Part shown: piece after piece, positions 21,679-51,446 of the stretch
Layout: each line of letters begins with the position of its first letter
Position numbering within the stretch: the first letter of the stretch is position 1
Translations under genes and position numbers: made by a program
IMG/VR virus record: IMGVR_UViG_3300003937_000240
Span: 1 to 51,446 of that record
Reading direction: 5' to 3' (one strand)
Length of the DNA: 51,446 bases
Origin: a virus
The notes under the pieces: generated by a model
The model's input: only the letters and a program-made list of their open reading frames with translations
What the model was told of the DNA's origin: nothing
Database searches by the model: none

Positions 21679-22370
21679 TGAGTTTAATCACTAAAGATAC
21701 ATTTGTATCAGCAACCTTCATTGACCAGGACAGGAAGAACCTTGAAGTTTTACTGAACATGGATCATACGGGTGAAATGGAACTAACACCTCATGTTATT
21801 GAGGCTTCAGAAGAGCAAAAAGATTTTAAAGATCTTATGAAAATTACTACTATGGATGCGATTCATGAAGAAACTTGGAATATCAAGAAAGCAGAGAGTG
21901 AAGCTTTCGTTGCAATGGCAAAACAAGTTATGGCAGATTCAGGTATGCTAGAGCAAGAAAGTAATTTGTCAAAGACAAAGATATTCCCTACTCTTGTTGA
22001 AGCTATCTTTACTAACATGGAAAATGAAGATCATTTATTTGCATTAAAGCTAGCACTATTTGAATTACAAGAAATACGTGAGTCAGATAATGTTGAAGCT
22101 AAGACTGCATTAAGAAAGGCCCAACATAAGATTGAAATCTTACAGCATGCATTTGCTATTACAGGTGTAAGATCTATGGACACTGATGTTGTAGCAGAAC
22201 TTGATCCTAAAGAAAATGAAAAAGCACTAGATAAAGTAGAGGCGACAATTAAGAAAGAATCTAAAATGTCACCGAAAAACAGAGCAGCAACTGCTAAGAG
22301 ACCTGAAGTACAGAAAGCAAAAGTGGCAGCTGCAAAGAAAATAGCAGCAGCTAAAGGAACAGAAGCTTAA
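21678..22370 (+). CDS. Unknown helical protein with basic Lys/Ala-rich tail
   Basis: A 230-residue protein of unknown family, the last gene of the plus-strand tail module. Residues 1-190 are mostly helical and acidic. The C-terminal 40 residues switch to a basic stretch rich in Lys and Ala (SPKNRAATAKRPEVQKAK, then AAAKKIAAAKG), similar in composition to histone-like or nucleic-acid-binding tails. The start overlaps the upstream stop (TAATG). The stop overlaps the stop of the convergent minus-strand operon. It might be a structural or DNA-binding late protein; nothing decides this. Confidence 0.6.
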   Translation: MSLITKDTFVSATFIDQDRKNLEVLLNMDHTGEMELTPHVIEASEEQKDFKDLMKITTMDAIHEETWNIKKAESEAFVAMAKQVMADSGMLEQESNLSKTKIFPTLVEAIFTNMENEDHLFALKLALFELQEIRESDNVEAKTALRKAQHKIEILQHAFAITGVRSMDTDVVAELDPKENEKALDKVEATIKKESKMSPKNRAATAKRPEVQKAKVAAAKKIAAAKGTEA

Positions 22371-22933
22371 CGTTTAAGAAACCAGGGTGACCACCAACCG
22401 GACCACCCTTCTTCCATAATGTGATGCATCTGTCCTAAGGTGCATATACGGAAGTTAGGATCAGCATATTTCATATTAAATTTTGGACATACGGGATTAA
22501 ACATTTCGTATTCTATTTCTTTATAATACCATTCATCACTGCCTTTATTGTATTGCTTCATATAAGCATCAGCATAAGGCCAAAACTTCTCCCATATATA
22601 TGATACATCACCAGTCCAAGAAACTATTGAAGAGTTTAATGGTGTATGTGCTGGTTCTCTCCACCATTTATCATCTAATAGTGTAAAATTCTTTTTAAAT
22701 AGATTAGGCAATCTTCCATATATAATCATATCTAAATCAAAATAGAGGTTCTCTCCATCCCTAAACTTATCATACATCTGAAATTTATTATACCAATTAC
22801 CATATAGATCTCTTTCAACAACTTCAAATTCATCATACTCTATACCTGACCAGCTGTCGATCATATGCTTTAAGTTATCAACATGCCATTGATTAAACTT
22901 ATCACCGAATCTACAACATATTATTCTCTTCAT
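22367..22933 (-). CDS. Small DxD glycosyltransferase-like protein
   Basis: 188 residues from the ATG at 22933, chosen because it forms a 4-nt ATGA overlap with the upstream stop. It begins MKRIICCRFGDKFNQWHVDN and carries a DLD motif at residues 66-68 in the setting ENLYFDLDMIIYG, the metal/nucleotide-sugar site of GT-A glycosyltransferases (GT8-like). Near residue 100 is an NSSIVSW segment where GT8 proteins have their acceptor-side Asn/Gly. The end is Trp-rich (EEGWSGWWSPWFL). It is the last gene of the minus-strand operon, after two related enzymes. Donor and acceptor are unknown; the three small enzymes may work in sequence on one acceptor. Confidence 0.7.
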   Translation of the reverse strand: MKRIICCRFGDKFNQWHVDNLKHMIDSWSGIEYDEFEVVERDLYGNWYNKFQMYDKFRDGENLYFDLDMIIYGRLPNLFKKNFTLLDDKWWREPAHTPLNSSIVSWTGDVSYIWEKFWPYADAYMKQYNKGSDEWYYKEIEYEMFNPVCPKFNMKYADPNFRICTLGQMHHIMEEGWSGWWSPWFLKR

Positions 22934-23691
22934 TTCCAATGATCCTTAATCCAACCGCAGCGATTGTCATGTATAGTATTCTCTAAACCAGTAAAGTGCA
23001 TTACTTTAATATTAGGATTTACCTTATCCATAAACATAAAATCACCAAACTCTTCAAAATATAATTTATTATTTACTGTATTTTCGGCCATATCCATATC
23101 GCATTTGCCTATCCACTCTTCAGGTGTAGGAATTATCTTTATCTTATTTTCCCATGCTCTCCAATTAACATAGTTCTGTTCACCGTAATATGGAAAGTGA
23201 ACAACTCTTTCATTGTAGTAATGCATTTGCCAATACTCAGGATTCTCAATAAAGTCATCCCATACATATGATAAACTACCAGATTTAAACTTGTAAAATC
23301 CACCATTTGTTTGTAATGCATTTGTTGCCATCTGTATGGTTTGTCTATTCCACCATATACCATACGTAACTAATTCATTCTCTTGTACATAATGTCCTAT
23401 AAGGTCGTCAACATTGCCTGTAATAACCTGATCAATATCCATAATTATTATATCATCACCTGGAGATTGATATCCAAAATACGGAGAGAAGAATTTTAGT
23501 TTATGCCAATGTTTCTTTACATCGCCATGAGGATTATATGGTAATACTATATCAGCTTCGACATTAGGATCGTCACTAAGACATACTGATTGAAATGGTA
23601 TACTACAGTTTCTTCTTATGCTATCATATAATTTACTTACATAGTCTGCATTATATTTGTCGCTATAGTATACGGTACATATTTTAACCAT
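22930..23691 (-). CDS. Glycosyltransferase-like protein (GT8-like, DID motif)
   Basis: 253 residues from the ATG at 23691. This start is preferred over the in-frame ATG at 23733 because GGAGAAG lies 6 nt upstream and the longer form would overlap the previous gene by 50 nt. The N-terminus (KICTVYYSDKYNADYV) and the DID motif at residues 85-87 (DDIIIMDIDQVITGN) match GT-A sugar transferases. A later NGGFYKFKSGSLSYVWD block is like the donor/acceptor loop of GT8 relatives. It resembles its neighbour at 22367 in layout (DxD, SLSYVWDDF against DVSYIWEKF), so the two are likely paralogues. Substrate unknown. Confidence 0.72.
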   Translation of the reverse strand: MVKICTVYYSDKYNADYVSKLYDSIRRNCSIPFQSVCLSDDPNVEADIVLPYNPHGDVKKHWHKLKFFSPYFGYQSPGDDIIIMDIDQVITGNVDDLIGHYVQENELVTYGIWWNRQTIQMATNALQTNGGFYKFKSGSLSYVWDDFIENPEYWQMHYYNERVVHFPYYGEQNYVNWRAWENKIKIIPTPEEWIGKCDMDMAENTVNNKLYFEEFGDFMFMDKVNPNIKVMHFTGLENTIHDNRCGWIKDHWK

Positions 23692-24550
23692 CGTATCTTC
23701 TCCACACACAATCAAAATCTTTACAGATTGCATGGACTATCTTTGCAAAAGGTGGTATGAACTGTTGCATATCAAAGAAGTAATGCCATCTTGGGTCAAG
23801 CCATTGTACAGGAACTTTATTAACTTTTAATTTATATGCGAAAATAGTTTCATTATCATATCTAAACATATCGACAATATTTTTAGGGTATAGACCGATT
23901 TCTCTATAATCATCACTTCTTAATGATGTCATCATTTCTAATATGTGTTTAAATCCACCGAAATAATCTAACTGCTTTATATGTTTTGCACTTGCACCAA
24001 TAATACCGGTATTGATTACATCATTATCAGGATAATAACCACCATCTAATAACATCGCTTGACAATTATAATATTTTGCTGATGGACTACGTATACTTTG
24101 GCTAGCTTCTACGTTATGAACAATCTTATCGTTATTATCTAAGACACATATTCCTTTATTTAAATCCCATTCTTCGAAGAAATTTTCTGAATGATTCATA
24201 GGTATAGCATCAAAGTCTAAGTATAGAATTTCATCATAGCTCTTTGCTAACTCATATAATACATGTAATTTATAGAAATTTATTATCTCATATCCAGTAA
24301 CCTCTGGGTAATCGCGTTGAAAATCTTTTTCAAACTGTTTATATCTATTATCGTATTCGTACATCTTAAATGGTACACCTATACGCTCAGCATAAACTCG
24401 TTTACATTCTTTTAATCTATCATAATGTTCTTTAAAAGCATCAACGGTTATCTCTGCTTTTTCTACTGTATCAAATTTACTTTTTGAGGTGGTGCCATAA
24501 TGTTCAGGTGCTGGTATATCAACATATATACTATAGATTATTCTTTTCAT
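23684..24550 (-). CDS. Glycosyltransferase-like protein (DFD motif)
   Basis: 288 residues. It opens MKRIIYSIYVDIP, like the other small transferases, has YEIINFYKLHVLYELAKSYD before the key motif, and a DFD at residues 112-114 (ILYLDFDAIPM), the probable Mn/nucleotide-sugar site. An NTGIIGASAKHIKQL segment near residue 180 corresponds to the Asn-containing acceptor loop of GT-A enzymes. The start overlaps the upstream methyltransferase stop (ATGA). It ends 8 nt inside the start of the next transferase. It is probably the first of three sequential sugar transfers, but no product can be named. Confidence 0.7.
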   Translation of the reverse strand: MKRIIYSIYVDIPAPEHYGTTSKSKFDTVEKAEITVDAFKEHYDRLKECKRVYAERIGVPFKMYEYDNRYKQFEKDFQRDYPEVTGYEIINFYKLHVLYELAKSYDEILYLDFDAIPMNHSENFFEEWDLNKGICVLDNNDKIVHNVEASQSIRSPSAKYYNCQAMLLDGGYYPDNDVINTGIIGASAKHIKQLDYFGGFKHILEMMTSLRSDDYREIGLYPKNIVDMFRYDNETIFAYKLKVNKVPVQWLDPRWHYFFDMQQFIPPFAKIVHAICKDFDCVWRRYDG

Positions 24551-25407
24551 AGCTTTCCAATTAATAGATACCTGATACCTCTCTCGTCTTCTAATTCACT
24601 CTCTGTCAATACTTCTGCTCCGGCTGGTAGTTGTACTTTAAATTTTTCTATGCTATCTACGCAGTTAATATGGCCTGGGATATCATACATGTTATTAGAT
24701 GTAAAGGCAAAATGAGCAGAAGGTTTAACTCTTTCCCACCAACCTATATCATATACCGGCCACTTGTTCTCATCTTTACCTTTCCACTCTCTTCTATAAT
24801 CACCATTCCATTCTTTAAACCAATCATGGTCTTTTCTTGGACCCTTTGGACCCCACCATTTCATAGGTAACATATGTTCACATGAGGTATTGATAAAGAT
24901 ATCTGCAGTATCAAACATATCTCTATAATCTTCGAAAATGTCGCCGGTTATCCAAGTGATATTATCATATTGGTCGAAGAATCTATTTTGACCAATTGAA
25001 ATCGCATGGTCATCTACATCAATTGCAGTAATACTTTTAACTTTGTCGTGTAATAGCGGTATAAGAATACTTCCATACCAGCATCCGAATATAACAACTT
25101 CAGTTTCTTTATTTAAAAGATTTAGATTATCTAAGCCATTCACTAAATTTGTTTTAGCTAAGACTTGATTATCACTAAATGAATCTAAAATATCCTCTTC
25201 GTGATCTGGCTCATGCTTAATTGCAGTGAATACACTATCGAGCAAGCTTCTATCTTGATCGTCATCTAATAATAAATTAAGAAATAAAAGATTGTCCTCT
25301 TGTTCTATAGCAGTTATAACGTCAAGTACGTGATTAACTCCTTTAGCTTTAGGATTTTTTAAGTTTAATATATTTGTTACATGAGATAATTTATCTCTAC
25401 TAAGCAT
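24547..25407 (-). CDS. SAM-dependent methyltransferase-like protein
   Basis: 286 residues from ATG 25407, which overlaps the upstream stop as TAATG; an ATG 9 nt further upstream is the alternative. The N-terminal 100 residues are helical. Class I methyltransferase motifs follow: VVIFGCWYGSILIPLL (motif I, near residues 104-119), an acidic strand end AIDVDDHAISIGQ (motif II) and later TADIFINTSCEHM (motif IV region). This layout with a helical N-terminus and a TSCEHM motif is seen in small-molecule or carbohydrate methyltransferases. It sits between a carbamoyltransferase and three glycosyltransferases, so O- or N-methylation of a sugar is a reasonable guess. Confidence 0.68.
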   Translation of the reverse strand: MLSRDKLSHVTNILNLKNPKAKGVNHVLDVITAIEQEDNLLFLNLLLDDDQDRSLLDSVFTAIKHEPDHEEDILDSFSDNQVLAKTNLVNGLDNLNLLNKETEVVIFGCWYGSILIPLLHDKVKSITAIDVDDHAISIGQNRFFDQYDNITWITGDIFEDYRDMFDTADIFINTSCEHMLPMKWWGPKGPRKDHDWFKEWNGDYRREWKGKDENKWPVYDIGWWERVKPSAHFAFTSNNMYDIPGHINCVDSIEKFKVQLPAGAEVLTESELEDERGIRYLLIGKL

Positions 25408-27035
25408 TATCCCCAACCATCACTTGTTACTTTTTTAATTAACATCCAATCTCCAATGACTAATATATCTATAGCTGTCTCACGAAAGGTACGTATCGCA
25501 TGCCACGGTTCTTCTACGATAGGCTCTTGAGAATTAAAACTAGTATTGAGTAACATAGGTATACCGGTTATTTTATAAAACTCATTAATGATATCGTAGT
25601 ACTTCTCATTTTGTTCTCTATTCACTGTCTGTATTCTTGCTGTTCCATCAACGTGTGTTACACCTGGAATTTTATCAGATATTACCGGCATAATTCTTGA
25701 CATATATGGTGATGGCTGATTCGTAGCAAAGTATTCTTTATAATGTTCTTCCATTACAGCAGGAGCAAATGGTCTAAAGTCTTCTCGCATTTTAATTGAA
25801 CTATTAATAATTTCTTTTATATCGGGATTACGTGGATCTGCTAAGATACTTCTATTACCTAATGCTCTATTGCCACTCTCAGATTTGCCTTGAAACCAAC
25901 CTACTGTTTTACCATCAGCAATTTGTTGAGCAACTTCAGTCATATTAAGAGGTTCCCAAAATAATGCTTCATATCCCCATTGAAACCCTTTACCTGATGA
26001 CCATCTTTCATACATATTCTGATCATTTATTCTTTCATCTTCAGTGGGTTCCCAATCATAGGCTTTACCAGAGTAAGTATCTACTACATGTTTGTTACCA
26101 TTTAAAACATAGTCAGCATGTTGATATGCACCAAGAGCTTGACCCTCATCACCAACTGCTGGAGGTACATGTACATTTTTCCATCTTTTAGTAAATGCCT
26201 CATTCATATATCCATTATAAGATACACCACCAGCAACACATAGATTATGAGAAGATTGAAGCGGATGAACAAATTCTCTTATTTTGTCCATTGTAAATTT
26301 CTGAAGAGTAAATGCTAGATCTTCTTTTCTATATCTATTTAAATCAATATATTCTTCGAATTTCTCCTGTTTCTTTTCTGTTATAGGACCAGCAAGTATT
26401 GTTTCAAATATTTCATAGAAGTAATCATTGTTTCTGCCATAAGCAGATAGTCCCATAAGCTTACCTGCACCTAACGTACCAAACCCTGTTAAATTTGACA
26501 TGTGATTCCATAACCAACCAATAGGCAATATATTTGACAGATCAGTCATTGTTCCATGTTTATCAAAGAAACAACAACGATAACGATTGCCAATACCATC
26601 GATGGCTAAACAATCAGCCTCTTCAAAACCTGAATTAATAAAGGCATATGCAGCATGCGATTGATGATGGTCTATAAAGTATATGTCATCTTTATAATAA
26701 TGATCCCACAATTTCTTAGGTTGCCAATCAAATATCTCATCATGTCCTTTTAATACCGTTTCAAGTAATTCATCTTTTGACATTCTTACACCACCGTAAG
26801 TATATGTGAATGCTAGAACACCATCATCAGGTTTCTTAAAATATTCTTTAGTGAATTCATCATTTAATCTATAATCACCAGGATTTAATATATCTGATTG
26901 ATGAGCATAAGCTTCTGCACGATAAGGTAGGTTATGCTTAAATCGTGTTTGCCTTTCTCTTTGATTATGCCATACTCCATCATATGTGTTGTGATCGTGT
27001 AGGTTTAATGCTACTGCCATTATTTTTTTATTCAT
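25407..27035 (-). CDS. Carbamoyltransferase (NodU/CmcH/TobZ family)
   Basis: 542 residues, full length for the family, which uses carbamoyl phosphate and ATP to place a carbamoyl group on a hydroxyl. Hallmarks in order: the metal-binding DHHQSHAAYAF at about residue 122, AIDGIGNRY, GKLMGLSAYGR, CVAGGVSYNG, VPPAVGDEGQALGAY, and the C-terminal YrdC-like module GWFQGKSESGNRALGNRSI, REDFRPFAPAVMEE, HVDGTARIQTV and MLLNTSFNSQEPIV. All main catalytic blocks appear intact. Known substrates include Nod factor sugars, aminoglycosides and cephalosporins; phage members exist in marine viruses. With the glycosyltransferases beside it, a sugar hydroxyl is the most likely acceptor. A modified DNA base is an alternative. 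Confidence 0.9.
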   Translation of the reverse strand: MNKKIMAVALNLHDHNTYDGVWHNQRERQTRFKHNLPYRAEAYAHQSDILNPGDYRLNDEFTKEYFKKPDDGVLAFTYTYGGVRMSKDELLETVLKGHDEIFDWQPKKLWDHYYKDDIYFIDHHQSHAAYAFINSGFEEADCLAIDGIGNRYRCCFFDKHGTMTDLSNILPIGWLWNHMSNLTGFGTLGAGKLMGLSAYGRNNDYFYEIFETILAGPITEKKQEKFEEYIDLNRYRKEDLAFTLQKFTMDKIREFVHPLQSSHNLCVAGGVSYNGYMNEAFTKRWKNVHVPPAVGDEGQALGAYQHADYVLNGNKHVVDTYSGKAYDWEPTEDERINDQNMYERWSSGKGFQWGYEALFWEPLNMTEVAQQIADGKTVGWFQGKSESGNRALGNRSILADPRNPDIKEIINSSIKMREDFRPFAPAVMEEHYKEYFATNQPSPYMSRIMPVISDKIPGVTHVDGTARIQTVNREQNEKYYDIINEFYKITGIPMLLNTSFNSQEPIVEEPWHAIRTFRETAIDILVIGDWMLIKKVTSDGWG

Positions 27036-27864
27036 TTAGTATACTCGCATATTTTTTAATATTAAAATGTCCCTTTGGTTGGACATATTCTGTACAGGTC
27101 TTACAATAATTTTCATATTTAAATAATCTGAAGTTCATCATCTTATCTATATTCTCTTGAGTTATCTCAAATTCTTTAGAGGTGATAGCATTGTTTGCAA
27201 ACTTCTTACTACAATGCACTAAGTTTTGATTCTCAAAGTTAATAACAGGTACCATAGGAAATGCTGCACACATCTTCCTATCTATCTCAGCTGCTTGGGC
27301 GTTTAATTGTATATTAGCAAAATCAGGTGATCTGCCATTAAACTCTTTCCATAAGGTATTTTTATGATCTAATTTTTTCATTGCCTCAGGATATAGATGT
27401 TTATACTTCTCAAAGTTAGGTGTCTTAATAACTAGATTATAATTATGAAAATCATTTTCATCATGGAACTCATATGACTTAGGTCCTAATAAAGATATCT
27501 CATGCTCATAAAAATCTAATATGAAATGCTCAACATATATTATAGTAGGATCTGTCAATACTTGTGGGTATCTTCTCCTTACGGTGGAGTTAGATAGTAC
27601 TTCGCATACATGATTAGGATTACTTTGAATTGCTTTGATTACATCAGGTAAATTCTTAATTAAACCAGGTTCACCACCAAGTATGTTACATCTAGTCTTG
27701 TAGTTTCTTAAATAATATAATGTTCTCTCTAAGAACTCCATATCAACGGTTAGATTCCTTTGTTCTAAAGTATAGCTCGTACAATAATGACAATCCTTAT
27801 TGCATGACATCGATAAAAAGAAATCTATTGCTAGATAATTATTTTGTACATCAGTTAATTTCAT
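27028..27864 (-). CDS. Radical SAM protein with C-terminal cysteine cluster
   Basis: 278 residues. Radical SAM core: the [4Fe-4S] motif CNKDCHYC at residues 21-28 and the SAM-binding GGEPG at 63-67. The C-terminal part has further cysteines (KMCAAFPMVPV, VHCSKKF, YCKTC) that could hold an auxiliary cluster as in SPASM/Twitch proteins. The motif lies close to the N-terminus, as in standard family members, unlike the larger radical SAM proteins of this operon. It is flanked by a carbamoyltransferase and a 111-residue unknown protein (ATGA overlap). A peptide or small-molecule modifying role is possible; no substrate can be assigned. Confidence 0.8.
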   Translation of the reverse strand: MKLTDVQNNYLAIDFFLSMSCNKDCHYCTSYTLEQRNLTVDMEFLERTLYYLRNYKTRCNILGGEPGLIKNLPDVIKAIQSNPNHVCEVLSNSTVRRRYPQVLTDPTIIYVEHFILDFYEHEISLLGPKSYEFHDENDFHNYNLVIKTPNFEKYKHLYPEAMKKLDHKNTLWKEFNGRSPDFANIQLNAQAAEIDRKMCAAFPMVPVINFENQNLVHCSKKFANNAITSKEFEITQENIDKMMNFRLFKYENYCKTCTEYVQPKGHFNIKKYASILNE

Positions 27865-28196
27865 TTCGAAAATCCACCATCTTTAGCATCTTTTAATATC
27901 CATTCCATATATGCAATCTCATGAAAAAATTTATTAAAAGCTATTAACAATTTTCTTTTTGGCTCTTCCTTAAATGGAGTATCTGACCATTTAGAATATT
28001 CTGGCATGAGATATATTTTTTCTACTATGTAGGAATATATAGCTTCGACATCTTCAACTAAACTTTCATCAATGACTACACTACCTAATAGTTTTTCCAT
28101 ACTATGATATAAAGGCATTAAGCCACCATCCTTTATTTCATGGAGATTAGCTTTGTCATCGATTAAAAAAATTCGATTGTTGATTATTTCTATCAT
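27861..28196 (-). CDS. Unknown small protein, 111 aa
   Basis: No family recognised. It is acidic and mostly helical after an N-terminal beta hairpin (IEIINNRIFLIDDKANLHEI). The C-terminus ends KDAKDGGFSK. It is embedded by 4-nt ATGA overlaps between a DegT-type aminotransferase and a radical SAM gene, so it is almost certainly translated. Its size and position would suit a partner protein, carrier or substrate of the adjacent radical SAM enzyme, but no RiPP-recognition or carrier-protein motif (such as a DSL phosphopantetheine site) is visible. Confidence 0.6.
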   Translation of the reverse strand: MIEIINNRIFLIDDKANLHEIKDGGLMPLYHSMEKLLGSVVIDESLVEDVEAIYSYIVEKIYLMPEYSKWSDTPFKEEPKRKLLIAFNKFFHEIAYMEWILKDAKDGGFSK

Positions 28197-29867: not shown

Positions 29868-29874
29868 ATAATTC

Positions 29875-29882
29875 TATTTATT
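29875..29882 (-). promoter_or_regulatory. Possible late promoter on minus strand, one mismatch
   Basis: On the minus strand AATAAATAG lies in the 13-nt gap between two operon genes (plus strand TATTTATT). It differs from TATAAATA at the first base and ends 7 nt before the ATG at 29867. It may be an internal late promoter, but chance is not excluded. Confidence 0.25.
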
Positions 29883-39760: not shown

Positions 39761-39766
39761 AATATA

Positions 39767-43341: not shown

Positions 43342-43367
43342 AACTTCTCAATTATCAATTATAGTTC

Positions 43368-43375
43368 TATTTATA
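43368..43375 (-). promoter_or_regulatory. T4-type late promoter for the minus-strand operon
   Basis: On the minus strand an exact TATAAATA, with predicted +1 near 43362, 21 nt before the ATG at 43341. The leader contains GAGAAG 2-7 nt before the start. It is the only strong promoter found for the 21-kb minus-strand operon. Confidence 0.7.
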
Positions 43376-43378
43376 TGT

Positions 43379-43386
43379 TATAAATA
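43379..43386 (+). promoter_or_regulatory. T4-type late promoter (outer) for the plus-strand block
   Basis: An exact TATAAATA, predicted +1 near 43392, about 23 nt before the desaturase ATG at 43415. Confidence 0.65.
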
Positions 43387-43396
43387 GGTATATAAT

Positions 43397-43404
43397 TATA
43401 AATA
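43397..43404 (+). promoter_or_regulatory. T4-type late promoter (inner) for the plus-strand block
   Basis: A second exact TATAAATA on the plus strand, predicted +1 near 43410, 5 nt before the desaturase ATG, leaving almost no leader. Confidence 0.6.
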
Positions 43405-43414
43405 AGTTGATAAT

Positions 43415-44868: not shown

Positions 44869-45791
44869 TACCAACTTACTTAGGTCTTACATTAGACGAA
44901 TTAAATCCAGACAACATTGCTGAATTAATTGCAAATGTGGGTGTAGTTGTTATACGTGATAGCGGAGCAACTCCTGAAGAATACGCTGAATGGTCTTTAG
45001 GTATAGGTTATCACTTAAGTCCAGAAATATGGTGTACTGATAAAGAACATTCAGATCTGTTTTGGACAGTAACAAATGAAATGGTTGATGATAGAAACCA
45101 AGGATTATTTGGTGACTATGAATTAGATTGGCATACTAATATGACTCCAGTTGCTGACGCAGAGGAAGTCATAGGTTTATATGCGAAGACAATAAGCTAT
45201 GAAACTGAAACATGGTTTGCTAGTTCAATACCATATTTTAATCAATTACCTGAAAAGAAACAAAATCTTTTAAGAGAATTAACAGTTGTACTTGACCCTA
45301 AAAGAACATTAGGTGTATATAAGCCAGCATGGCAGCCTAAGTTTGGACAAATATATGGAGAAGAAGTTCTACGAGAAATTCAAAAGAATAGAGAAACTCG
45401 TGAGGTTTTTAATGCATTAAATATGGAGCCTGAGAATAAACACAAATTTGGTGCATCTCGTGGTATAATGAATAATCATAGACTTGTACCTAAACATCCA
45501 TTAGGTGTCGAAGGTTTATTCTTTAGTCCATATGAGGTACACGGATTTTTAAAAGATGGTGAACCGTATGAACACTCAGAAGAATTATTTAATGAGTTAT
45601 GGAATGATTATGTATGTAATGATAGATACGTATATATGCATACGTGGCAAGAAGGAGATATAGCATTATTTGATAATGTAATAGGTATACATAGAAGACC
45701 AGATATACTTAAAGATAAGCCACGTAAACTATTACGAACTGCTACATGGTACAAATCACATATGAGGAAACACCACGACTATGTTGTATAA
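44862..45791 (+). CDS. TauD-like oxygenase homologue with HxN motif
   Basis: 309 residues from ATG 44862, which overlaps the previous stop; the longer TTG form at 44841 is less likely. It follows the TauD/TfdA fold: LELDWHTNMTP-type block at about 87-97, ASRGIMNNHRLVPKHP in the middle, and the distal GDIALFDNVIGIHRRPD with His 277 and a following Arg. In Fe(II)/2-oxoglutarate enzymes the first block is W-H-x-D/E. Here the acidic residue is Asn 93 (codon AAT), so one of the three metal ligands is changed. The same change occurs in the two tandem relatives downstream. Substrate unknown; could be a non-hydroxylating or altered-metal enzyme. Confidence 0.75.
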   Translation: MVVPTYLGLTLDELNPDNIAELIANVGVVVIRDSGATPEEYAEWSLGIGYHLSPEIWCTDKEHSDLFWTVTNEMVDDRNQGLFGDYELDWHTNMTPVADAEEVIGLYAKTISYETETWFASSIPYFNQLPEKKQNLLRELTVVLDPKRTLGVYKPAWQPKFGQIYGEEVLREIQKNRETREVFNALNMEPENKHKFGASRGIMNNHRLVPKHPLGVEGLFFSPYEVHGFLKDGEPYEHSEELFNELWNDYVCNDRYVYMHTWQEGDIALFDNVIGIHRRPDILKDKPRKLLRTATWYKSHMRKHHDYVV

Positions 45792-45794
45792 ATA
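45787..45794 (+). promoter_or_regulatory. T4-type late promoter octamer overlapping a stop codon
   Basis: An exact TATAAATAG. The upstream gene's stop TAA (45789-45791) is inside the octamer, and the ATG at 45800 is 5 nt beyond it, where +1 is predicted. It would give a leaderless transcript for the following oxygenase block. Confidence 0.6.
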
Positions 45795-45799
45795 GAAAT

Positions 45800-46429
45800 A
45801 TGAGAACAAAATATAAATTACCAACACATGGTGAATTAAAGCATATCAATATAGATCTTGATAAGCTTCAAGCTGCTACTGATAAGTTAGCTAATGACTA
45901 TGTTGATGTAAAGACCGCTAACAAAATGTTATGTGATAATCATATGGCATTGAGTAAATCTGTATACGATAATTTTGAACAAGTAAACTTAACCGAATTT
46001 GGCGGTGAAAAAGAATTAGAATATACAGATAGCATAAAAGAAAGATTAAGAAGAGGTGAGGAAAAACTATATAATAAGCCAAATGAAAAATATATAGGAA
46101 GCTATTTCGAAGAGATATGTAATCAGTTTGAATGTGATAAGATGAGAGTTCGTATCACTAAACTTGATCCACATACGAATGTTCCTATGCATATTGATTA
46201 TGATCCTACATATGCCACAAGAGTTATTATACCAGTTTATACAAATGAGAAAGTAAAGAATTTATTTAAAGTGAAAGGTGAAGAGATTGAAACACATTTA
46301 GAAGCAGGTAAAGCCTACTTCTTAAATACTGGGTTTGCTCATGGCGTATTCAATAAGAGCGACGAACCACGCATAGCCTTTATGTTTAGTTTGGACGGAC
46401 AAAATGACATTACAGATATTAGATTATAG
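45800..46429 (+). CDS. Fe(II)/2-oxoglutarate oxygenase-like protein (aspartyl/asparaginyl hydroxylase type)
   Basis: 209 residues from ATG 45800; an in-frame ATG at 45746 lies inside the previous gene and would add 18 unlikely residues. The core is MRVRITKLDPHTNVPMHIDY, with the HxD pair at residues 131 and 133, then RVIIPVYTN and GKAYFLNTGFAHGVFN with the distal His at 181, followed by EPRIAFMFSL containing the 2-oxoglutarate-binding Arg. This pattern is like aspartyl/asparaginyl beta-hydroxylases. It is flanked by TauD-like genes; the end overlaps the next gene by 26 nt. Protein or peptide side-chain hydroxylation is plausible. Confidence 0.72.
   Translation: MRTKYKLPTHGELKHINIDLDKLQAATDKLANDYVDVKTANKMLCDNHMALSKSVYDNFEQVNLTEFGGEKELEYTDSIKERLRRGEEKLYNKPNEKYIGSYFEEICNQFECDKMRVRITKLDPHTNVPMHIDYDPTYATRVIIPVYTNEKVKNLFKVKGEEIETHLEAGKAYFLNTGFAHGVFNKSDEPRIAFMFSLDGQNDITDIRL
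46404..46429 (+). repeat. 26-nt gene-overlap junction, copy 1
   Basis: Encodes the end of the upstream gene (ITDIRL, stop) and, in another frame, the start of the next gene (MTLQILDYS). Similar 26-nt junctions occur at 47200-47225 and 48002-48027. Confidence 0.7.
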
Positions 46430-47225
46430 CGACGATCAATTTACAGAATTAGCAAATAAAATAATCGAAGATGGATCAGTAGTACTCCATGAACAAAATC
46501 TAACACGAGCACAGCATGTTGAAGTATGCGAACGTTTTGGTGAGTGCGAGAAACAAGGATATTGGATGAATCCACCTGATACTCCAGAAATTAGTATTGT
46601 ATCTGGTCAAGTAGATGAAGATGGCAATTCTATTGGTATGTTTAGAGATCAAGAATTAGAATGGCATGTGAACGGTGCTGGTAGACATAAGCTAACAGAA
46701 TTTGTTGTATCATTATATTGTGTTGAGGAATGCGTAGATACAGTGCTCTCAATATGTAATTGGTCACATATGTTTGCTGATCTATCCAAAGAAGAACAAG
46801 ATTATTATCGAAGTATTGATGTACACCTTGATGGAAATGGTGTTACATTGTGGCCTAATAGTGATTATATGGGTAGAGAGCGGGAGTTTAATGTAAGTAA
46901 TGAATATTATAAAGAAGCTATTGAAGATGATGATAGACGACCGCTTATTGGTATTCATCCAATAGATGGCAAAGAATATTGTTATTTTCTTATTCAATAT
47001 TTAAAAGAAGCATATATTGGAAATAAGAAATTAGACATTAAAGAATTCTATGATGACTTATGGCCGAAAGTATTCAGATCAAAATATATGAAACATCACG
47101 TATTTAGAAGAGGCGACCTACTCTTTATGGACCAATTAAAGACGATTCATAGACGATCGCCTATACATTATATGGATAGAATGTTGTGGAGGACTGCGTT
47201 TGACTACTCAAATATTAGATTTTAG
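46404..47225 (+). CDS. TauD-like oxygenase homologue with HxN motif (tandem copy 1)
   Basis: 273 residues. The TauD pattern is intact except at the metal triad: EWHVNGAGRHK places His 88 and Asn 90 where H-x-D is expected. The distal block GDLLFMDQLKTIHRRSP has His 249, and Arg follows in RMLWRTAFDYS. Similarity to the next gene is high (TLYCVEECIDTVLSICNQ against SLYCVEECVDTVLSICNW; SKYMKHHVFRKGDLLFMDQL). The start codon lies in a 26-nt overlap with the previous gene. This same overlap is repeated at the next two junctions, pointing to tandem duplication. Substrate unknown. Confidence 0.75.
   Translation: MTLQILDYSDDQFTELANKIIEDGSVVLHEQNLTRAQHVEVCERFGECEKQGYWMNPPDTPEISIVSGQVDEDGNSIGMFRDQELEWHVNGAGRHKLTEFVVSLYCVEECVDTVLSICNWSHMFADLSKEEQDYYRSIDVHLDGNGVTLWPNSDYMGREREFNVSNEYYKEAIEDDDRRPLIGIHPIDGKEYCYFLIQYLKEAYIGNKKLDIKEFYDDLWPKVFRSKYMKHHVFRRGDLLFMDQLKTIHRRSPIHYMDRMLWRTAFDYSNIRF
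47200..47225 (+). repeat. 26-nt gene-overlap junction, copy 2
   Basis: Encodes FDYSNIRF-stop at the end of copy 1 and TTG-initiated MTTQILDFS at the start of copy 2. Nearly identical to 48002-48027. Confidence 0.85.
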
Positions 47226-48027
47226 TGATGAACAATTAAAAGAATTAGCTGAAGAAATTATAGCTACGGGTTCTGCTGTGTTGTACGATCAAGTATTGAC
47301 ACAAGAAGAATATGTCAAAATGGGTTATCGTATGGGTGAATGCGAAGGATATAATTACTTTATGAATCCTAAAGATCACCCAGAAATTAGTCTTGTAAGT
47401 GGACAAAAAGATGAAGATGGAAAACAGATAGGAGTATTTGGCGAAGGTGAATTACAATGGCACGCTAATGGTACAGCTCGTCATAAATTTGATCAAATAG
47501 TTGTAACACTATATTGTGTAGAAGAATGTATAGATACTGTATTATCAATATGTAATCAATGCGATGCATTTGCAGAATTATCTGAAAGAGATAAAGAAAG
47601 ATATAGAACTATAGATATTCAGCTTGATAATGTAACAGATGCTATATATAAGATATCTGACTATGATTTACCTGATCAGCCAGCGCCTGAAAATACTATT
47701 AACACAGGAGCTGAGTTTTATCAAGAGGATGTAGATAGAAGGCCATTAGTAGGTAAACATCCAATTGATGGTAGAGAATATTTATATTTCATGGTACCAT
47801 TTATTGTTGGCGCATTTGAAAGAGGTGAAAGAATTAATCATGAAGCTTTATATGATGAGTTATGGAGGAAGTTATTTAAATCGAAATATATGAAACATCA
47901 TGTATTTAGAAAAGGTGACTTATTGTTTATGGACCAATTACATACTACACACAGGCGGTCCCCTGTTAAAGACACAAAGCGTATGTTATGGAGGTTAGCA
48001 TTTGACTACTCAAATATTAAATTTTAG
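47200..48027 (+). CDS. TauD-like oxygenase homologue with HxN motif (tandem copy 2)
   Basis: 275 residues with TTG start at 47200 inside the 26-nt overlap. TTG is chosen because the start region MTTQILDFSDEQ aligns with the ATG-initiated copy 1. QWHANGTARHKFDQI gives His 88 and Asn 90 in place of H-x-D. The distal block GDLLFMDQLHTTHRRSP and the WRLAFDYS Arg region are intact. It differs from copy 1 mainly in a central loop (residues about 145-175), where an insertion QPAPENTINTGAEF appears. It is next to the shorter third copy and belongs to the same tandem family. Confidence 0.75.
   Translation: MTTQILDFSDEQLKELAEEIIATGSAVLYDQVLTQEEYVKMGYRMGECEGYNYFMNPKDHPEISLVSGQKDEDGKQIGVFGEGELQWHANGTARHKFDQIVVTLYCVEECIDTVLSICNQCDAFAELSERDKERYRTIDIQLDNVTDAIYKISDYDLPDQPAPENTINTGAEFYQEDVDRRPLVGKHPIDGREYLYFMVPFIVGAFERGERINHEALYDELWRKLFKSKYMKHHVFRKGDLLFMDQLHTTHRRSPVKDTKRMLWRLAFDYSNIKF
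48002..48027 (+). repeat. 26-nt gene-overlap junction, copy 3
   Basis: Encodes FDYSNIKF-stop and, in the other frame, TTG-initiated MTTQILNFS. Almost identical in sequence to 47200-47225. Confidence 0.85.
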
Positions 48028-48682
48028 TGATGAAAAATTATTAGAAGTTGCAAAAGAAATTCAGACTGGAAAACCTATTTTCTTTTTTGAACAAGATTTA
48101 ACTCAATCTGAATATGTTAAACTAATGAAAAGGTTTGGTGAACCTGAAACACCAAGATTATGGATGAATCCACTTGAAGAAGATAAAGAATACTATAGAG
48201 GCATTTCGTGTTATTTTAAATATGAAAATAATACGATGATGGAATTACATGAAGACGATCCAGAATTAGAAGTTATGGATAGTCATGTTGGTTCTATTCG
48301 TAAATTAGTTGATAAGCATCCACACACTGGTGAAGAATATATTTATTTCTCATATCACTTTATACGAAAGGTATGGCATAAATCAAAAGGACAAAGGAAA
48401 GTACCTGTTGATAGAGATGAATTTGTTGATAAGTTATATGCAAAGATAATGAGATCAAAGTATCTTACACACCATATATTTAAAAAAGGTGACTTAATAC
48501 TTATGGACCAATTTGCTTCATTGCATAGACGTACTGCAATTGAAGATGTTAATCGAGAACTATGGAGAATAGCAAGCGACTATAGTGTTATTATGCCTAG
48601 TGATTGGTATGAATTAAAAGGTAATGAAGTTGATAGCACAGGTGGTAAAATTGGTTGGAAAAAGAAGGATGTCGGATATTAA
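48002..48682 (+). CDS. TauD-like paralogue with internal deletion of the HxN block (tandem copy 3)
   Basis: 226 residues with TTG start at 48002 and the same first residues (MTTQILNFSDEK). After WMNP near residue 56 the sequence jumps straight to LEEDKEYYRGI, equivalent to SKEEQDYYRSI in copy 1. It has therefore lost about 70 residues, including the whole metal-binding H-x-N segment and the following strands. The distal SKYLTHHIFKKGDLILMDQF and LHRRT are kept. It has an added C-terminal tail (GNEVDSTGGKIGWKKKDVGY). With two metal ligands gone, it is probably catalytically inactive, perhaps a regulatory or scaffold subunit. Confidence 0.7.
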   Translation: MTTQILNFSDEKLLEVAKEIQTGKPIFFFEQDLTQSEYVKLMKRFGEPETPRLWMNPLEEDKEYYRGISCYFKYENNTMMELHEDDPELEVMDSHVGSIRKLVDKHPHTGEEYIYFSYHFIRKVWHKSKGQRKVPVDRDEFVDKLYAKIMRSKYLTHHIFKKGDLILMDQFASLHRRTAIEDVNRELWRIASDYSVIMPSDWYELKGNEVDSTGGKIGWKKKDVGY

Positions 48683-49262
48683 TTGTGTTTATAAAGTTCC
48701 ATATAAAGGAAATGTTCAAGAATTATCTAATTATGTTTTAGATAATATTAACTGCTATGAATGGGCTGTAGCTGAGAAAGCTATATCTTATACTTCAGAT
48801 GGAAATAAGAAAGCTACATATTCTTCTGTTTTTGATTTGCCACAAAAGTATAAAGATATATTAACTGATAGTCTTGGTTATAATTTGATATCAGAATGTT
48901 TTCTTTGGCATTATCCTGATACGGTTGAGTTATCTATACATAGAGATAAGTCACCATATATGGAAAAGAATATGAACCAATGTGTAGGATATTGGACAGC
49001 GATTATACCTATCGTTGATGTGAGATCAAGAATAGATGTGTGGGAACCTATACATCCTGATGCGAATAGATGGGATTATGAACAAACAGAATATGCAGCA
49101 AATTTGGCTAATATGAGACACGATCATTTTAAAAAAATAAAAGATTTAGAATATGAAATAGGCGATGTTGTTATGCTTGCTAATCAAACTCATTTTCATT
49201 CCGTTGAAAGTGAAACAACAGGAAAAATGAGTCTTCACTTTTTTGTAGATAAACCATTATGA
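48669..49262 (+). CDS. Fe(II)/2-oxoglutarate oxygenase-like protein with HxD...H
   Basis: 197 residues from ATG 48669 (14-nt overlap with the previous gene, AAGAAGG just upstream); a longer ATG at 48624 is unlikely. The double-stranded beta-helix pattern is TVELSIHRDKSPYM with His 91 and Asp 93, WTAIIPIVD, and EIGDVVMLANQTHFHSVESE with the distal His at about 177 (His 175 is the alternative), then KMSLHFFVD. The metal triad is complete. It is short, with an N-terminal part of unknown role. Its position after three TauD-like genes suggests it works on the same substrate. Confidence 0.62.
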   Translation: MSDINCVYKVPYKGNVQELSNYVLDNINCYEWAVAEKAISYTSDGNKKATYSSVFDLPQKYKDILTDSLGYNLISECFLWHYPDTVELSIHRDKSPYMEKNMNQCVGYWTAIIPIVDVRSRIDVWEPIHPDANRWDYEQTEYAANLANMRHDHFKKIKDLEYEIGDVVMLANQTHFHSVESETTGKMSLHFFVDKPL

Positions 49263-49873
49263 TTACAGGAATATCTTTTAGTCATGCAAAGAACTCTATG
49301 AATACTCGAGGCTTAAAATTAATGGGTCTTGATTACGTATATGACATGACAGATTTTAACATGCCTATATGTGATAAGAATAGTGCTGATGGTAAAGTGT
49401 TAGTTCGTGTACATAATTTCTTAAAGGTAATTAAAGATGCAGACATATTAGTGTTTGCAATACCTGAAGCTACTGCTCATTATTCTGCTGGATTTAAAAA
49501 TGCAATGGATTGGATAATATGTTCAACACATTTTAATTCTGATCTTGGCCAAGATGGACCATTCTCTAATAAACCCATCTATATAATAACATTTACTCCT
49601 GTAGTAAAAAATGCTGGTCATAGACATTTTCAAATGTCTACACATTTAATAGAGAAAATGGGTGGTATAGTTTATGATACTTTTTGTAAGAACAACGGTT
49701 GGAAAGAATGCATTCCAGGTAATTATGAGTGGGTTAAAGAAGAAGCAATTGAAATATTTGATATGCGTAATACATTCTTAGCTGAACCACGAGAGAGAAA
49801 ACCTGATATGACAGATAGACCACAAAAATGGGTAGAACAATATAAGGAGTGGGATGCTAAGTGGAATAGTTGA
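49259..49873 (+). CDS. NADPH-dependent FMN reductase-like flavoprotein
   Basis: 204 residues with a flavodoxin-like fold: ITGISFSHAKNSMNTRGL (phosphate loop), KDADILVFAIPEATAHYSAGFKNAMDWI, which matches the P-E-x-x-x-x-x-x-x-KNA-DW signature of NADPH-dependent FMN reductases, and KPIYIITFTPVVKNAGHRHF. The ATG overlaps the previous stop (ATGA). These enzymes supply reduced FMN or transfer electrons from NADPH. Here it could feed electrons to the neighbouring oxygenase or desaturase reactions. The electron link is inferred from adjacency, not from the protein. Confidence 0.75.
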   Translation: MITGISFSHAKNSMNTRGLKLMGLDYVYDMTDFNMPICDKNSADGKVLVRVHNFLKVIKDADILVFAIPEATAHYSAGFKNAMDWIICSTHFNSDLGQDGPFSNKPIYIITFTPVVKNAGHRHFQMSTHLIEKMGGIVYDTFCKNNGWKECIPGNYEWVKEEAIEIFDMRNTFLAEPRERKPDMTDRPQKWVEQYKEWDAKWNS

Positions 49874-50435
49874 GTATATTAATGTCGATTATGATAAAGA
49901 TTATCTCATACGAAAACATAATGAAGTAAGAGGTGTACATGGTAAAGAGTACATTGAATGTGGAACCGAATCTCATATTCTTCGAAATAACCCAGATTAT
50001 TATAGACAATGGGACCATATACTTACAATTATGAGTGGAGTTAATATTGGTATGTGTGAGCATGGTACTGGTTTTAATTCGAATGCTACTCTTACATCTG
50101 GTGTTCCGCCTCATATAGATTTTGATGAGAGAGAAGGTAATCAATTTAATTTATTATTACCAATGTATGGTGTAGCAAAGATTGGCATATATGAAACTAT
50201 ACAAGAACAATTAGAATATAGACATGGCATGATGCATTGGAATATGTTACAAGATAAATATCCACCAAATAAAATAGGTGAAATTATTGTAGATAAGCCA
50301 GTCTTATTAGATACAATATACTTACATGACGTCAAAGTATTAGAAGCACCTCGAGCAATATTCTGTGTTGCATGGAGAGGTATAAATAAAACATATCATG
50401 AATTTAAAAAATATGCCGAGAAAGCACTTACCTAA
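49854..50435 (+). CDS. Fe(II)/2-oxoglutarate oxygenase-like protein (HxD...H, phytanoyl/prolyl-type fold)
   Basis: 193 residues. The beta-helix core is LTSGVPPHIDFDEREGNQFNLLL, with His 87 and Asp 89. The second half has KPVLLDTIYLHDVKVLEAP, with the distal His at about 158, then AIFCVAWRGINK with a basic residue near the end. The metal triad is complete. It starts 20 nt before the end of the previous gene and overlaps the next by 38 nt. A dioxygenase role is likely; the substrate is unknown. Confidence 0.6.
   Translation: MLSGIVEYINVDYDKDYLIRKHNEVRGVHGKEYIECGTESHILRNNPDYYRQWDHILTIMSGVNIGMCEHGTGFNSNATLTSGVPPHIDFDEREGNQFNLLLPMYGVAKIGIYETIQEQLEYRHGMMHWNMLQDKYPPNKIGEIIVDKPVLLDTIYLHDVKVLEAPRAIFCVAWRGINKTYHEFKKYAEKALT
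50381..50388 (+). promoter_or_regulatory. T4-type late promoter octamer TATAAATA inside a coding region
   Basis: An exact octamer near the end of the oxygenase gene, 9 nt before the ATG at 50398. It may be a real late promoter for the methyltransferase or a chance coding match (Gly-Ile-Asn-Lys). Confidence 0.35.
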
Positions 50436-51093
50436 TCCAGAAAAGTACGACTTTCGCGAAACAAATTATGTAAATGGTATTCCATTTCCAAGATTACCTA
50501 AAGAAATATTCGATGATGTCCCATTAAAAGAAGATTATCGTATGTATAGTATGGATTACTTAGATACTCCTGAAGCTTTACCTATATTTGAAAAGCAAGC
50601 TGATATTATTATGGAGCATGGCTACGAAGGTATAGTTGATGTAGGTTGTAGACATGGTCCAATCAATGAGATATTATACTATCGAGGATACACAGATTAT
50701 CAGTACTTTGGCTTTGATACATCCCCTGAACCTATTAAGTATGGTCAAGAAACGTGGCAAGAATTTCCTAATATAGAATATGCTGTCGGATCATTTCACG
50801 ATAGATTATCTGTAGGCTTTGACGTTGATTGTATTATATGGTCAGGTGTTTTATTATATGAACCAGATAATCATTTAAAATTATTTACTGATATGCACAA
50901 ATTCTATAATTGTTATGGTGCAATCATACAAGAACCAAAGAAAAATCAACATCCTGAATGTTGGAGAGAGGATTTAGAATTAAATACAATTGAAGATCAG
51001 CTATATAGGTATATGTGCTTTAATACAAAATTCTATAATATAGATGTGCCAATATTTAGTGGTCGTAGAACAATAGTAGATGTAAGATTATGA
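50398..51093 (+). CDS. SAM-dependent methyltransferase-like protein
   Basis: 231 residues; ATG 50413 (MPRKHLPNPEKY) is an alternative start that would shorten the 38-nt overlap with the upstream gene. The class I motif is YEGIVDVGCRHGPINEIL near residues 76-93, then YFGFDTSPEPIKYGQ (motif II acidic residue) and DVDCIIWSGVLLYEP (motif IV). The end (GAIIQEPKKN and SGRRTIVDVRL) fits a Rossmann-like core with a short C-terminal extension. It is the last intact gene of the oxygenase block, so it may finish the same product. Target unknown. Confidence 0.7.
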   Translation: MNLKNMPRKHLPNPEKYDFRETNYVNGIPFPRLPKEIFDDVPLKEDYRMYSMDYLDTPEALPIFEKQADIIMEHGYEGIVDVGCRHGPINEILYYRGYTDYQYFGFDTSPEPIKYGQETWQEFPNIEYAVGSFHDRLSVGFDVDCIIWSGVLLYEPDNHLKLFTDMHKFYNCYGAIIQEPKKNQHPECWREDLELNTIEDQLYRYMCFNTKFYNIDVPIFSGRRTIVDVRL

Positions 51094-51446
51094 TACCAAA
51101 AAGTGAAACACTACCATGTGGATATAGAGTAATACCATACATATATAAACGTAAATTTAATTTCGAAGTATCTCAACGTGATATGTCATTATGTGATAAT
51201 GCATTATATTTAATGGATAAAGAAAGAGACGGAGATAGATTAGATGAGAATTATAGCCACCATAATTTACACTTAGGTGAAATGTTTATATATAATTTTG
51301 TGTTTGACGGTGTAAAACCTGTGCTTGCTTCAGGTGCTCAATATGATGGTGATGCAATAAGAGTCTTCTCAAGATATTTTGGATTTAATAAATATAGAAC
51401 GGATGGCACAAAGCTATTAGAGAAAGTTGATGACTTCGAAGAATTA
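51090..51446 (+). CDS. Unknown protein, N-terminal part (3' end outside window)
   Basis: Starts at ATG 51090 with an ATGA overlap with the previous stop and stays open for 119 codons to the window edge. No family recognised. Recognisable stretches: PCGYRVIPYIYKRKF, DRLDENYSHHNLHLGEMFIY and VLASGAQYDGDAIRVFSRYF. It is clearly translated as part of the plus-strand block by its coupling. No function proposed. Confidence 0.7.
   Translation, partial: MIPKSETLPCGYRVIPYIYKRKFNFEVSQRDMSLCDNALYLMDKERDGDRLDENYSHHNLHLGEMFIYNFVFDGVKPVLASGAQYDGDAIRVFSRYFGFNKYRTDGTKLLEKVDDFEEL

Follow-up and report, generated by a model that had tools for sequence, protein, structure and literature searches.

A probable late-infection pathway for an unusual sugar, for tail fibers or the host surface, in an ordered row of enzymes beside the tail genes of T4-like marine phages

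We analyzed a 51,446-base virus contig (IMG/VR record IMGVR_UViG_3300003937_000240, taken at its full length and called the window below), in which positions 22367–51446 form a two-armed island of enzyme genes adjoining the baseplate and tail fiber genes of a T4-like marine phage. Positions 1–22370, on the plus strand, encode T4-type baseplate and tail fiber proteins, including gp5, gp25, gp6, and a gp53-like protein. The tail module is followed by a minus arm, m21 to m01 (22367–43341), and then by a plus arm, p1 to p12 (43415 to the record end). The gp6 protein is nearest to those of Methylophilales phage Melnitz (39%) and the SAR11 phages HTVC008M (37%) and Mosig (35%). An earlier note, made from the letters of this stretch, had described a two-armed enzyme island beside the tail module; we confirm the island, and the note's inventory of its genes is right in the main, with corrections given below. 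We find an ordered gene core in the minus arm and a tie between that core and two tail-region genes, T16 and T17, and we propose that this row of enzymes acts late in infection and probably makes an unusual sugar, which would be attached to the phage's tail fibers or to the host surface.

The location itself is already known. The island lies after VrlC and inside the tail fiber region, in the same place as the published pelagimyophage host recognition cluster and with the same glycosyltransferases and radical SAM cassettes (Zaragoza-Solas et al. 2020, PMC7029224). The edge marker of that cluster is the VrlC-like protein T7 (6595–11658, plus strand), which aligns with HTVC008M VrlC at 38% over the C-terminal 700 residues. 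T9–T15 are fiber-like proteins, and T9, T12, T14, and T15 match tail fiber or virion-structural phrogs. T16 (20764–21678, plus strand), a tail-region protein that travels with the island, and T17 (21678–22370, plus strand), which lies end to end with m21, have no phrog match, and a profile search of the PDB with T16 gave nothing useful; we suspect that T16 is an acceptor and that T17 is an adaptor or chaperone. The window stops at 51446, short of any neck gene, and the Mosig island sits between VrlC and the neck genes.

Three glycosyltransferases lie nearest the tail module, each with a DxD motif and, like the rest of the arm, on the minus strand: m21 (22367–22939; FDLD), a conserved family matching phrog_1962 glycosyltransferase at E 1.4e-4; m20 (22930–23733; MDID), matching phrog_1962 at E 3.4e-12; and the GT8-like m19 (23684–24550; LDFD), with a weak match to PF01501 and no PDB match by profile. 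Beyond them are a methyltransferase, m18 (24547–25416; weak PF13649), and an O-carbamoyltransferase, m17 (25407–27035; PF16861, E 1.7e-65). The best PDB matches of m17, which has the HHQSHA motif, are TobZ, GdmN, and novobiocin carbamoyltransferase; these enzymes act in antibiotic making. The radical SAM enzyme m16 (27028–27864) has weak likeness to viperin and BtrN and, in alignment, four further conserved cysteines; its Radical_SAM match scores 29.0 bits when searched alone and passes the cut-off when searched with its neighbors. The small protein m15 (27861–28196) is fused to the C terminus of the DegT protein in Mosig and in locus L141. The DegT-type sugar aminotransferase itself, m14 (28193–29263; PF01041, E 2.4e-84), contains an SFNANK stretch and is closest in the PDB to scyllo-inosose and QdtB aminotransferases. 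The core is completed by the SGNH/GDSL-like m10 (31373–32182; weak PF13472 and PF00657) and by the GT-B-like N-domain of the three-part protein m01 (40426–43341), called m01N.

These genes recur together in a fixed order. A scan of viral contigs with m16 as the seed gave 296 relatives, of which the best 80 loci were kept; the counts that follow are for m16 loci with enough flank, record presence anywhere in the locus, and include near copies and same-contig loci. DegT was present in 74/74 loci and m15 in 78/78, followed by SGNH (m10 or m11) in 68/69, the carbamoyltransferase in 66/68, the methyltransferase in 54/62, and the glycosyltransferases m19, m20, and m21 in 54/57, 52/55, and 48/51, respectively. 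Less constant were the m01 N-domain (48/60), an m09-type radical SAM gene (45/64), and the twitch frame m07a (38/55), and the optional genes m02–m06, m08, m12, and m13 occurred in 4 to 29 of 55 loci. Loci from viral contigs that were recovered with m02, m03, and m08 likewise show the minus-arm order, which is kept down to ~40–60% protein identity. Judged from this gene content, the minus arm has a colinear core of m01N, m10, and m14–m21. The earlier note had named independent scatter among related phages as the outcome that would make a single system unlikely; instead, the families co-occur in fixed order in loci seeded with m02, m03, and m08, with m16, and with T16. A scan of genome contigs, made with the m16 profile only, found 3 relatives (L140, L141, and L142). 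Two of them, L140 and L142, carry T16/T17 beside the core; the metagenome-assembled genomes that hold them are labeled Gammaproteobacteria and Rhodobiaceae, and their gene content makes them look like phage contigs within those assemblies. The third, L141 (7.6 kb, from a Pelagibacter metagenome-assembled genome), has core genes only and no tail gene. With just three matches, two of them beside phage tail genes, we rejected a cellular source for m16, the only family scanned there.

The tie of the island to the tail region is well supported by locus comparisons. T17 was present in 42/50 and T16 in 35/43 m16 loci. A scan with T16 gave 528 relatives (best 80 of 528 kept), 50 of them with at least 6 kb downstream; all 50 held an m19–m21-type glycosyltransferase, again counting presence anywhere in the locus, and 28 held m16. 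After near copies were removed by shared 12-mers, a glycosyltransferase or methyltransferase gene lay downstream of T16 in 37/37 loci and an island-type radical SAM gene in 34/37. The first glycosyltransferase or methyltransferase gene shares its strand with T16 in 11 of the 37 loci and lies on the opposite strand in 26; because both orientations occur, the tie to T16 has survived rearrangement. For a control set, with T7/VrlC as the anchor, viral contigs were scanned with VrlC of the island-less phage HTVC008M, keeping the best 80 of at least 571 relatives; 42 loci had at least 5 kb downstream, and an island was called from two or more island genes. By this measure, the island accompanied T16 or T17 in 17 of 18 loci versus 0 of 24 others (Fisher p 7e-11, kinship ignored) and, after dereplication, which also dropped the one exception, L359, in 13/13 versus 0/17; the T16 and control counts made before dereplication include near copies and same-contig loci. 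The label changes 7 times on the VrlC tree (5–7 in bootstrap replicates), and well-supported branches force at least 2 changes, which implies that T16/T17 and the island were gained or lost together more than once.

A sugar-nucleotide NAD-dependent epimerase (PF01370, E 6e-26) separates T16 from T17 in Mosig and in other phages; it was found in 15/18 control loci with T16/T17 versus 0/24 others and in 23/69 loci of the T16 scan. For T16 alone the tie is looser: a glycosyltransferase accompanied it in 9/13 control loci versus 5/29 without T16 (Fisher p 0.003, kinship ignored). The four control T16 loci lacking a glycosyltransferase are L357 and L367, in which m14–m16 are present and run off the locus, L336, which has radical SAM genes, and L359, which has neither of these. 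T16 as a universal island partner was ruled out by five loci that have only T17.

It could be argued that co-transfer alone accounts for this pattern, T16/T17 and the enzymes being exchanged as a block within a hypervariable locus while the enzymes serve several unrelated roles. The cluster has been described as a hypervariable island (PMC7029224), and modules within it do separate, namely, the plus arm and a nitroreductase-hydrolase pair. However, the core genes keep their order even among widely diverged loci, fusions join core enzymes, and the tie between T16 and glycosyltransferases is found in both orientations. We regard co-transfer alone as improbable.

Cultured phages provide a further comparison. 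Mosig (Pelagibacter phage EXVC030M, MT647606; PMC7892664), a SAR11 phage isolate whose host is Candidatus Pelagibacter ubique HTCC1062, carries a compact version of the island with both arms in the same divergent layout, flanked by the tail fiber genes T10–T14 on one side and T17 and T16 on the other. Its T16 is Mosig_00097 (QOI69061.1), and its T17 is Mosig_00095. Minus-arm identities to the window are 54% for m01N, 42% for SGNH, 56% for DegT, 71% for m16, 68% for the carbamoyltransferase, 46% for the methyltransferase, and 62, 53, and 62% for the glycosyltransferases; in the plus arm, they are 49% for the desaturase, 33% for the aminotransferase, 44% for the FMN reductase, 46% for TauD, and 52% for the Asp hydroxylase. 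Compared to the window, Mosig has fewer radical SAM and nitroreductase genes, an epimerase gene adjoining T17, a stand-alone m01N, and m15 fused to DegT. Among 50,697 phage records, m16, T16, and T17 each match one, which is Mosig in all three cases; the accessible text of its genome announcement does not discuss the island genes (PMC7892664). HTVC008M infects the same strain, HTCC1062, and has no island. No such island genes are annotated in the tail regions of HTVC008M and Melnitz; radical SAM matches are entirely absent from Melnitz, and the single one in HTVC008M lies outside the tail region.

The comparison of Mosig with HTVC008M bears on whether the sugar is destined for the phage or for the cell. 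The pathway might modify the lipopolysaccharide core or another surface glycan of the host late in infection, preventing readsorption to debris or excluding rival phages, with T16 as the matched fiber. Such a role has been proposed for the GT8 genes that pelagimyophages carry in their host recognition cluster (PMC7029224), it agrees with the GT8 likeness of m19, and a fiber and receptor-modifying enzymes would also be co-inherited. Nevertheless, HTVC008M infects the same strain without the island, and the minus arm encodes no flippase, ligase, or membrane protein. The glycosyltransferase or methyltransferase genes that follow T16 on its own strand in 11/37 loci also speak for a virion target, though host-surface modification would allow that arrangement too. 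Gtr-type O-antigen modification uses a membrane flippase and a membrane glycosyltransferase. In contrast, none of the 22 minus-arm frames shows a membrane segment, no window in them exceeding 1.6 on the Kyte-Doolittle scale (a simple hydropathy heuristic). We consider host-surface modification unlikely, though it ranks second after a fiber as the target. Among the products suggested by the earlier note, a modified virion component or a surface glycan fits best, whereas a lipid or a secreted molecule fits poorly with a minus arm in which no transporter, flippase, ligase, or membrane segment was found.

Of the 21 minus-arm junctions, which had been described as one chain of overlaps, 18 do overlap (10 by four bases, 1 as TAATG, and 7 in other ways), but 3 have gaps. 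In the divergent gap between the arms (43342–43414), late-type octamers stand at 43368 (minus strand), 43379 (plus), and 43397 (plus), at positions conserved in relatives, so that TATAAATA octamers precede the first gene of each arm, as in a T4-type late transcription unit defined by sequence. The octamers that the earlier note saw facing both arms are present and kept in position among relatives, but the window holds no excess of them: TATAAATA occurs 15 times, against a mean of 12.1 and a maximum of 25 in 60 Markov runs. We rejected the excess as evidence and base the argument on positional conservation. In 9 of 15 upstream regions, an octamer facing m01 lies 34–37 bases before the m01 start (8 of 14 when L002, a fragment of the window, and its twin L007 are counted as one), with m01 identity falling to 49%, and an octamer facing away from m01 lies at 45–47 bases in 8 of 15. 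L141 has an m01-facing octamer at 16 bases, and five of the 15 regions (L112, L115, L125, Mosig, and L142) have none; compact versions of the island often lack it. Because the octamer position is conserved and a glycosyltransferase or methyltransferase gene lies on the tail gene strand in 11/37 T16 loci, late expression of the long version of the island is likely, and the earlier prediction of expression at the virion assembly stage has fair support, all of it from sequence.

The remaining minus-arm genes are optional cassettes or paralogs. The isochorismatase-like m13 (29247–29867) aligns with m03, and the nitroreductase-like m12 (29881–30558; no Pfam match) aligns with m02. The SGNH-like m11 (30555–31376) is a paralog of m10 at 50% identity. 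Radical SAM protein m09 (32179–33480) matches phrog_21308 at E 9.5e-16, and the optional PP-loop ATPase m08 (33477–34340), known from weak matches and alignment, has QueC-like C-terminal cysteines. Next are two frames of a split radical SAM enzyme, m07b (34316–34813), a remnant of the radical SAM core that is broken in the window, and m07a (34939–35337), a separate cysteine-rich, twitch/SPASM-like frame that precedes it. They are followed by m06 (35334–36110), nitroreductase-like and optional; by two optional N-terminal-twitch radical SAM proteins, m05 (36107–37567) and m04 (37567–39141); by m03 (39092–39760), an optional protein that a model places in the isochorismatase/nicotinamidase fold; and by m02 (39767–40429), an optional nitroreductase-like protein (profile to nitroreductases, E 4.8e-4) that is paired with m03 in many phages. 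Profile searches of the PDB with m08, m10, and m19 gave nothing useful.

Compared with the families listed in the earlier note, some assignments hold more firmly than others. The carbamoyltransferase m17 and the DegT aminotransferase m14 stand on strong Pfam matches. Of six radical SAM loci, m01, m04, m05, m09, and m16 are supported and carry the CxxxCxxC motif, but m07 is broken in the window and lacks it, the motif being present in intact relatives. Against the curated 170-bit cut-off of NF033640 (N_Twi_rSAM, NCBIfam), m01 scores 239.8 bits (residues 329–761), m04 288.4, and m05 275.5; the substrate of this twitch-domain family is not known, and m01 differs from it by adding the GT-B-like N-domain and a C-terminal part with an HID motif. 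Of three nitroreductases, m06 passes the Pfam cut-off (PF00881, 29.5 bits against 23.5), but m02 falls below it and m12 is placed by alignment only. The PP-loop protein m08 and the SGNH protein m10 have matches below the curated cut-offs, and m11 is placed by its likeness to m10. Neither of the two supposed cysteine hydrolases, m03 and m13, has a Pfam match, but the m03 model (pLDDT 87) has four PDB matches at E ≤ 0.001, its top four, all nicotinamidase (SaPncA) chains with TM 0.43–0.45 by query. Isochorismatase-like hydrolases use an Asp-Lys-Cys catalytic triad. In an alignment of 28 m03/m13 sequences, Cys116 is invariant, another residue stands in place of the Asp in L014 and the m13 group, and no conserved Lys is visible by eye.

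Several of these parts are fused in relatives. The m01 N-domain stands alone in Mosig, L117, L127, L141, and L142; is joined to a twitch domain in L112 and to a twitch radical SAM domain in L105 and L135; and has both a radical SAM and a C-terminal part in the window and L109. In L127, an m08-type PP-loop protein is fused to an m09-type radical SAM protein. We count these fusions, together with that of DegT and m15, in favor of one pathway, as they join its parts. The stand-alone N-domain of Mosig (Mosig_00083; L137 16229–17095) carries the annotation of a molybdenum cofactor enzyme, a role suggested neither by its sequence nor by its predicted fold. The two frames of m07 are kept in relatives, with their order reversed (core, then twitch frame) in L142 and L009. 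The m02-m03-type pair also sits elsewhere: on a 170-kb contig, it lies after the capsid gene gp23 between two radical SAM genes (L091 7898–12085), and on a 165-kb contig that has the core at another place, the pair and a further nitroreductase lie between and after ribonucleotide reductase genes, without radical SAM neighbors (L097 5824–8873). Single-protein searches of phage records gave no match for m03 and one weak match for m04, so the isolates could not date the optional cassettes.

Since SPASM/twitch radical SAM enzymes often act on peptides, and the NCBIfam list for m05 includes several weak peptide-maturase matches, these enzymes might instead make a peptide or another small natural product that is released. 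No precursor peptide or exporter was recognized in the minus arm, however; m15, a small gene, forms a fusion with DegT in Mosig and L141, and the core includes three glycosyltransferases and a sugar aminotransferase. A released product of this kind seems very improbable to us.

Genomes that are ~99.9% identical differ by deletions in m07b and p7. In the window, 156 bases of m07 are absent at 34871|34872 relative to L006, and the CxxxCxxC motif is lost with them; the L006 sibling has an intact m07b of 259 amino acids that passes the Pfam cut-off. The m07b deletions measure 156 bases in the window, ~117 in L131, 57 in L007, and none in L006. For p7, ~207 bases are absent from the window relative to L007, at 48175–48177. 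These deletions are either real variants or assembly faults.

The plus arm, all on the plus strand, begins with the fatty acid desaturase family protein p1 (43415–44056; PF00487) and the aminotransferase p2 (44041–44868; weak PF00155), which we used as the marker of this module. Four TauD-like proteins (PF02668) follow, p3 (44841–45791; WHTN replacing WHxD), p5 (46404–47225), p6 (47200–48027), and p7 (48002–48682; ~207 bases short), with the Asp/Asn hydroxylase-like p4 (45746–46429; PF05118, Asp_Arg_Hydrox) among them. The arm continues with p8 (48624–49262) and p10 (49854–50435), suspected 2-oxoglutarate oxygenases; the NADPH-dependent FMN reductase p9 (49259–49873; PF03358); the methyltransferase p11 (50398–51093; PF13847, 26.4 bits against a cut-off of 27); and the reading frame p12 (51090–51446), cut by the record end. 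The desaturase and the FMN reductase, both named in the earlier note, pass the Pfam cut-off. Eight oxygenase-like domains had been counted; the four TauD proteins and the one Asp_Arg_Hydrox protein pass the cut-off, but the C terminus of m01, p8 (HRD only; no oxygenase match in Pfam), and p10 (HID only; no Pfam match) rest on H-x-D motifs. In p3, p5, p6, p7, and relatives (L007, L013, L016, L137, L195, and L218), 11 of 11 distinct first WH motifs read WHxN, down to 26% identity. We take the Asp of the TauD family WHxD motif to be an iron ligand, and the change may mean another metal site, other chemistry, or lost activity. Many 2-oxoglutarate-Fe(II) oxygenase genes are dispersed across the Mosig genome besides those in the island (L137, L219, and L220).

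The plus arm forms a second module that can be separated from the first. Scanning with p2 recovered 30 loci, each of which has at least two other plus-arm genes; only 17 of the 27 with enough flank hold at least two minus-arm genes, and plus-arm genes are rare in m16 loci (p1 in 8/44, p2 in 1/44). The earlier idea of one coupled pathway across both arms does not hold as stated: the plus arm is its own module by these p2 counts, and the nitroreductase-hydrolase pair sits elsewhere as well.

A carbamoyltransferase beside glycosyltransferases could also point to DNA base hypermodification, with m17 carbamoylating a hydroxymethylated base and the glycosyltransferases adding sugars. A phage 5-hydroxymethylcytosine carbamoyltransferase is known (PMC8670742), but the contigs described there also carry thymidylate synthase family genes. 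The four records with the whole m14–m21 core (Mosig, G001, G002, and G006) have no PF00303 or Tet_JBP match, the IMG/VR records among them possibly being fragments; PF00303 is present in three T16 records that have part of the core only, and Tet_JBP in the island-less Melnitz. Late-type promoters and a location among tail genes also fit early DNA work poorly, and we consider DNA modification highly improbable.

Taken together, these observations support the minus arm as a sugar pathway well, as predicted from its enzyme families, and its late timing fairly. We tentatively favor, at a strength just short of probable, a late pathway that makes a decorated amino sugar and glycosylates a tail fiber component. 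We rank a fiber first on two grounds: the tie to T16/T17 holds even where gene order and strand have changed, and nothing is encoded for export or membrane assembly. A keto sugar would be supplied by the epimerase or by a host sugar nucleotide and aminated by m14; m16 and the other radical SAM, nitroreductase, and PP-loop enzymes may alter its carbon frame or amino group; and carbamoyl, methyl, and acyl groups may be added or trimmed by m17, m18, and m10. The glycosyltransferases m19–m21, with m01N, would then assemble a short glycan on an acceptor in the cytosol, likeliest a fiber component of the T15/T16 group, during virion assembly. The outcome would be a variable decorated fiber for adsorption or against antagonists, and the plus arm would make another modification, perhaps on the same target.

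Several observations weigh against this proposal. The window has no epimerase gene adjoining T17. Five of the 18 control loci with T16/T17 (L361, L362, L363, L368, and L380) have T17 and the island without T16; in two of them, L361 and L380, the epimerase occupies the frame between T15 and T17. Conversely, L359 has T16 with fewer than two island genes and carries another radical SAM gene and an epimerase. HTVC008M, which has no T16, has a row of radical SAM, methyltransferase, carbamoyltransferase, NadE-like, and sugar-nucleotide dehydrogenase genes outside its tail region (126811–132312; L138 12628–18129), perhaps a simpler relative of the pathway. As T16 and the island share one locus, joint transfer could keep both together without a working link. 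Finally, GT-B is a lean for m01N rather than a finding, and its fold is not settled: the model (pLDDT 69.6) has its best match, Z 8.8 (rmsd 9.1, 217 aligned), to a glucosyltransferase, other folds reach 8.4, and the scores of unrelated catalase chains come close to those of glycosyltransferases; a sequence search of the PDB with m01N gave no convincing match.

The host recognition cluster is described as non-syntenic and hypervariable, with lipopolysaccharide roles (PMC7029224). Here, in contrast, the core is colinear and the optional cassettes vary; we measured an ordered core, its tie to T16/T17 and the epimerase, optional cassettes, and a separable plus arm, and the ordered core and its coupling to tail genes do not appear in the passages of that paper on the cluster. 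A T4-like environmental genome with 12 radical SAM genes is likewise rich in this family (Nishimura et al. 2017, PMC5332604); the sections of that report on these genes treat them as Fe-S proteins of unknown role and propose no gene order or product. In the open-access literature, we found no description of the ordered core or of its tie to T16/T17.

A broader reading, which we hold as possible and more tentatively, is that large SAR11-type T4-like phages own a radical SAM-based pathway making a new carbamoylated, methylated amino sugar or cyclitol, which would glycosylate their own fiber during assembly, with cassettes swapped to diversify the fiber surface; as part of this reading, the pathway families, of which m16 is the one scanned, would not be found in cellular genomes outside phage-looking contigs. 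If this is correct, phages that rank among the most numerous in the sea produce a virion sugar of their own by means of hitherto uncharacterized enzymes, including a conserved split radical SAM enzyme and radical SAM fusions with a glycosyltransferase-like domain. A large share of the unexplained "auxiliary" genes of ocean phages would then have a function, and enzyme cassettes would be linked to host recognition. The role of the host recognition cluster would become answerable with two isolates on HTCC1062, Mosig with the island and HTVC008M with none. It would be a case of virus-owned protein glycosylation in which cassettes are swapped as tail fiber tips are elsewhere.

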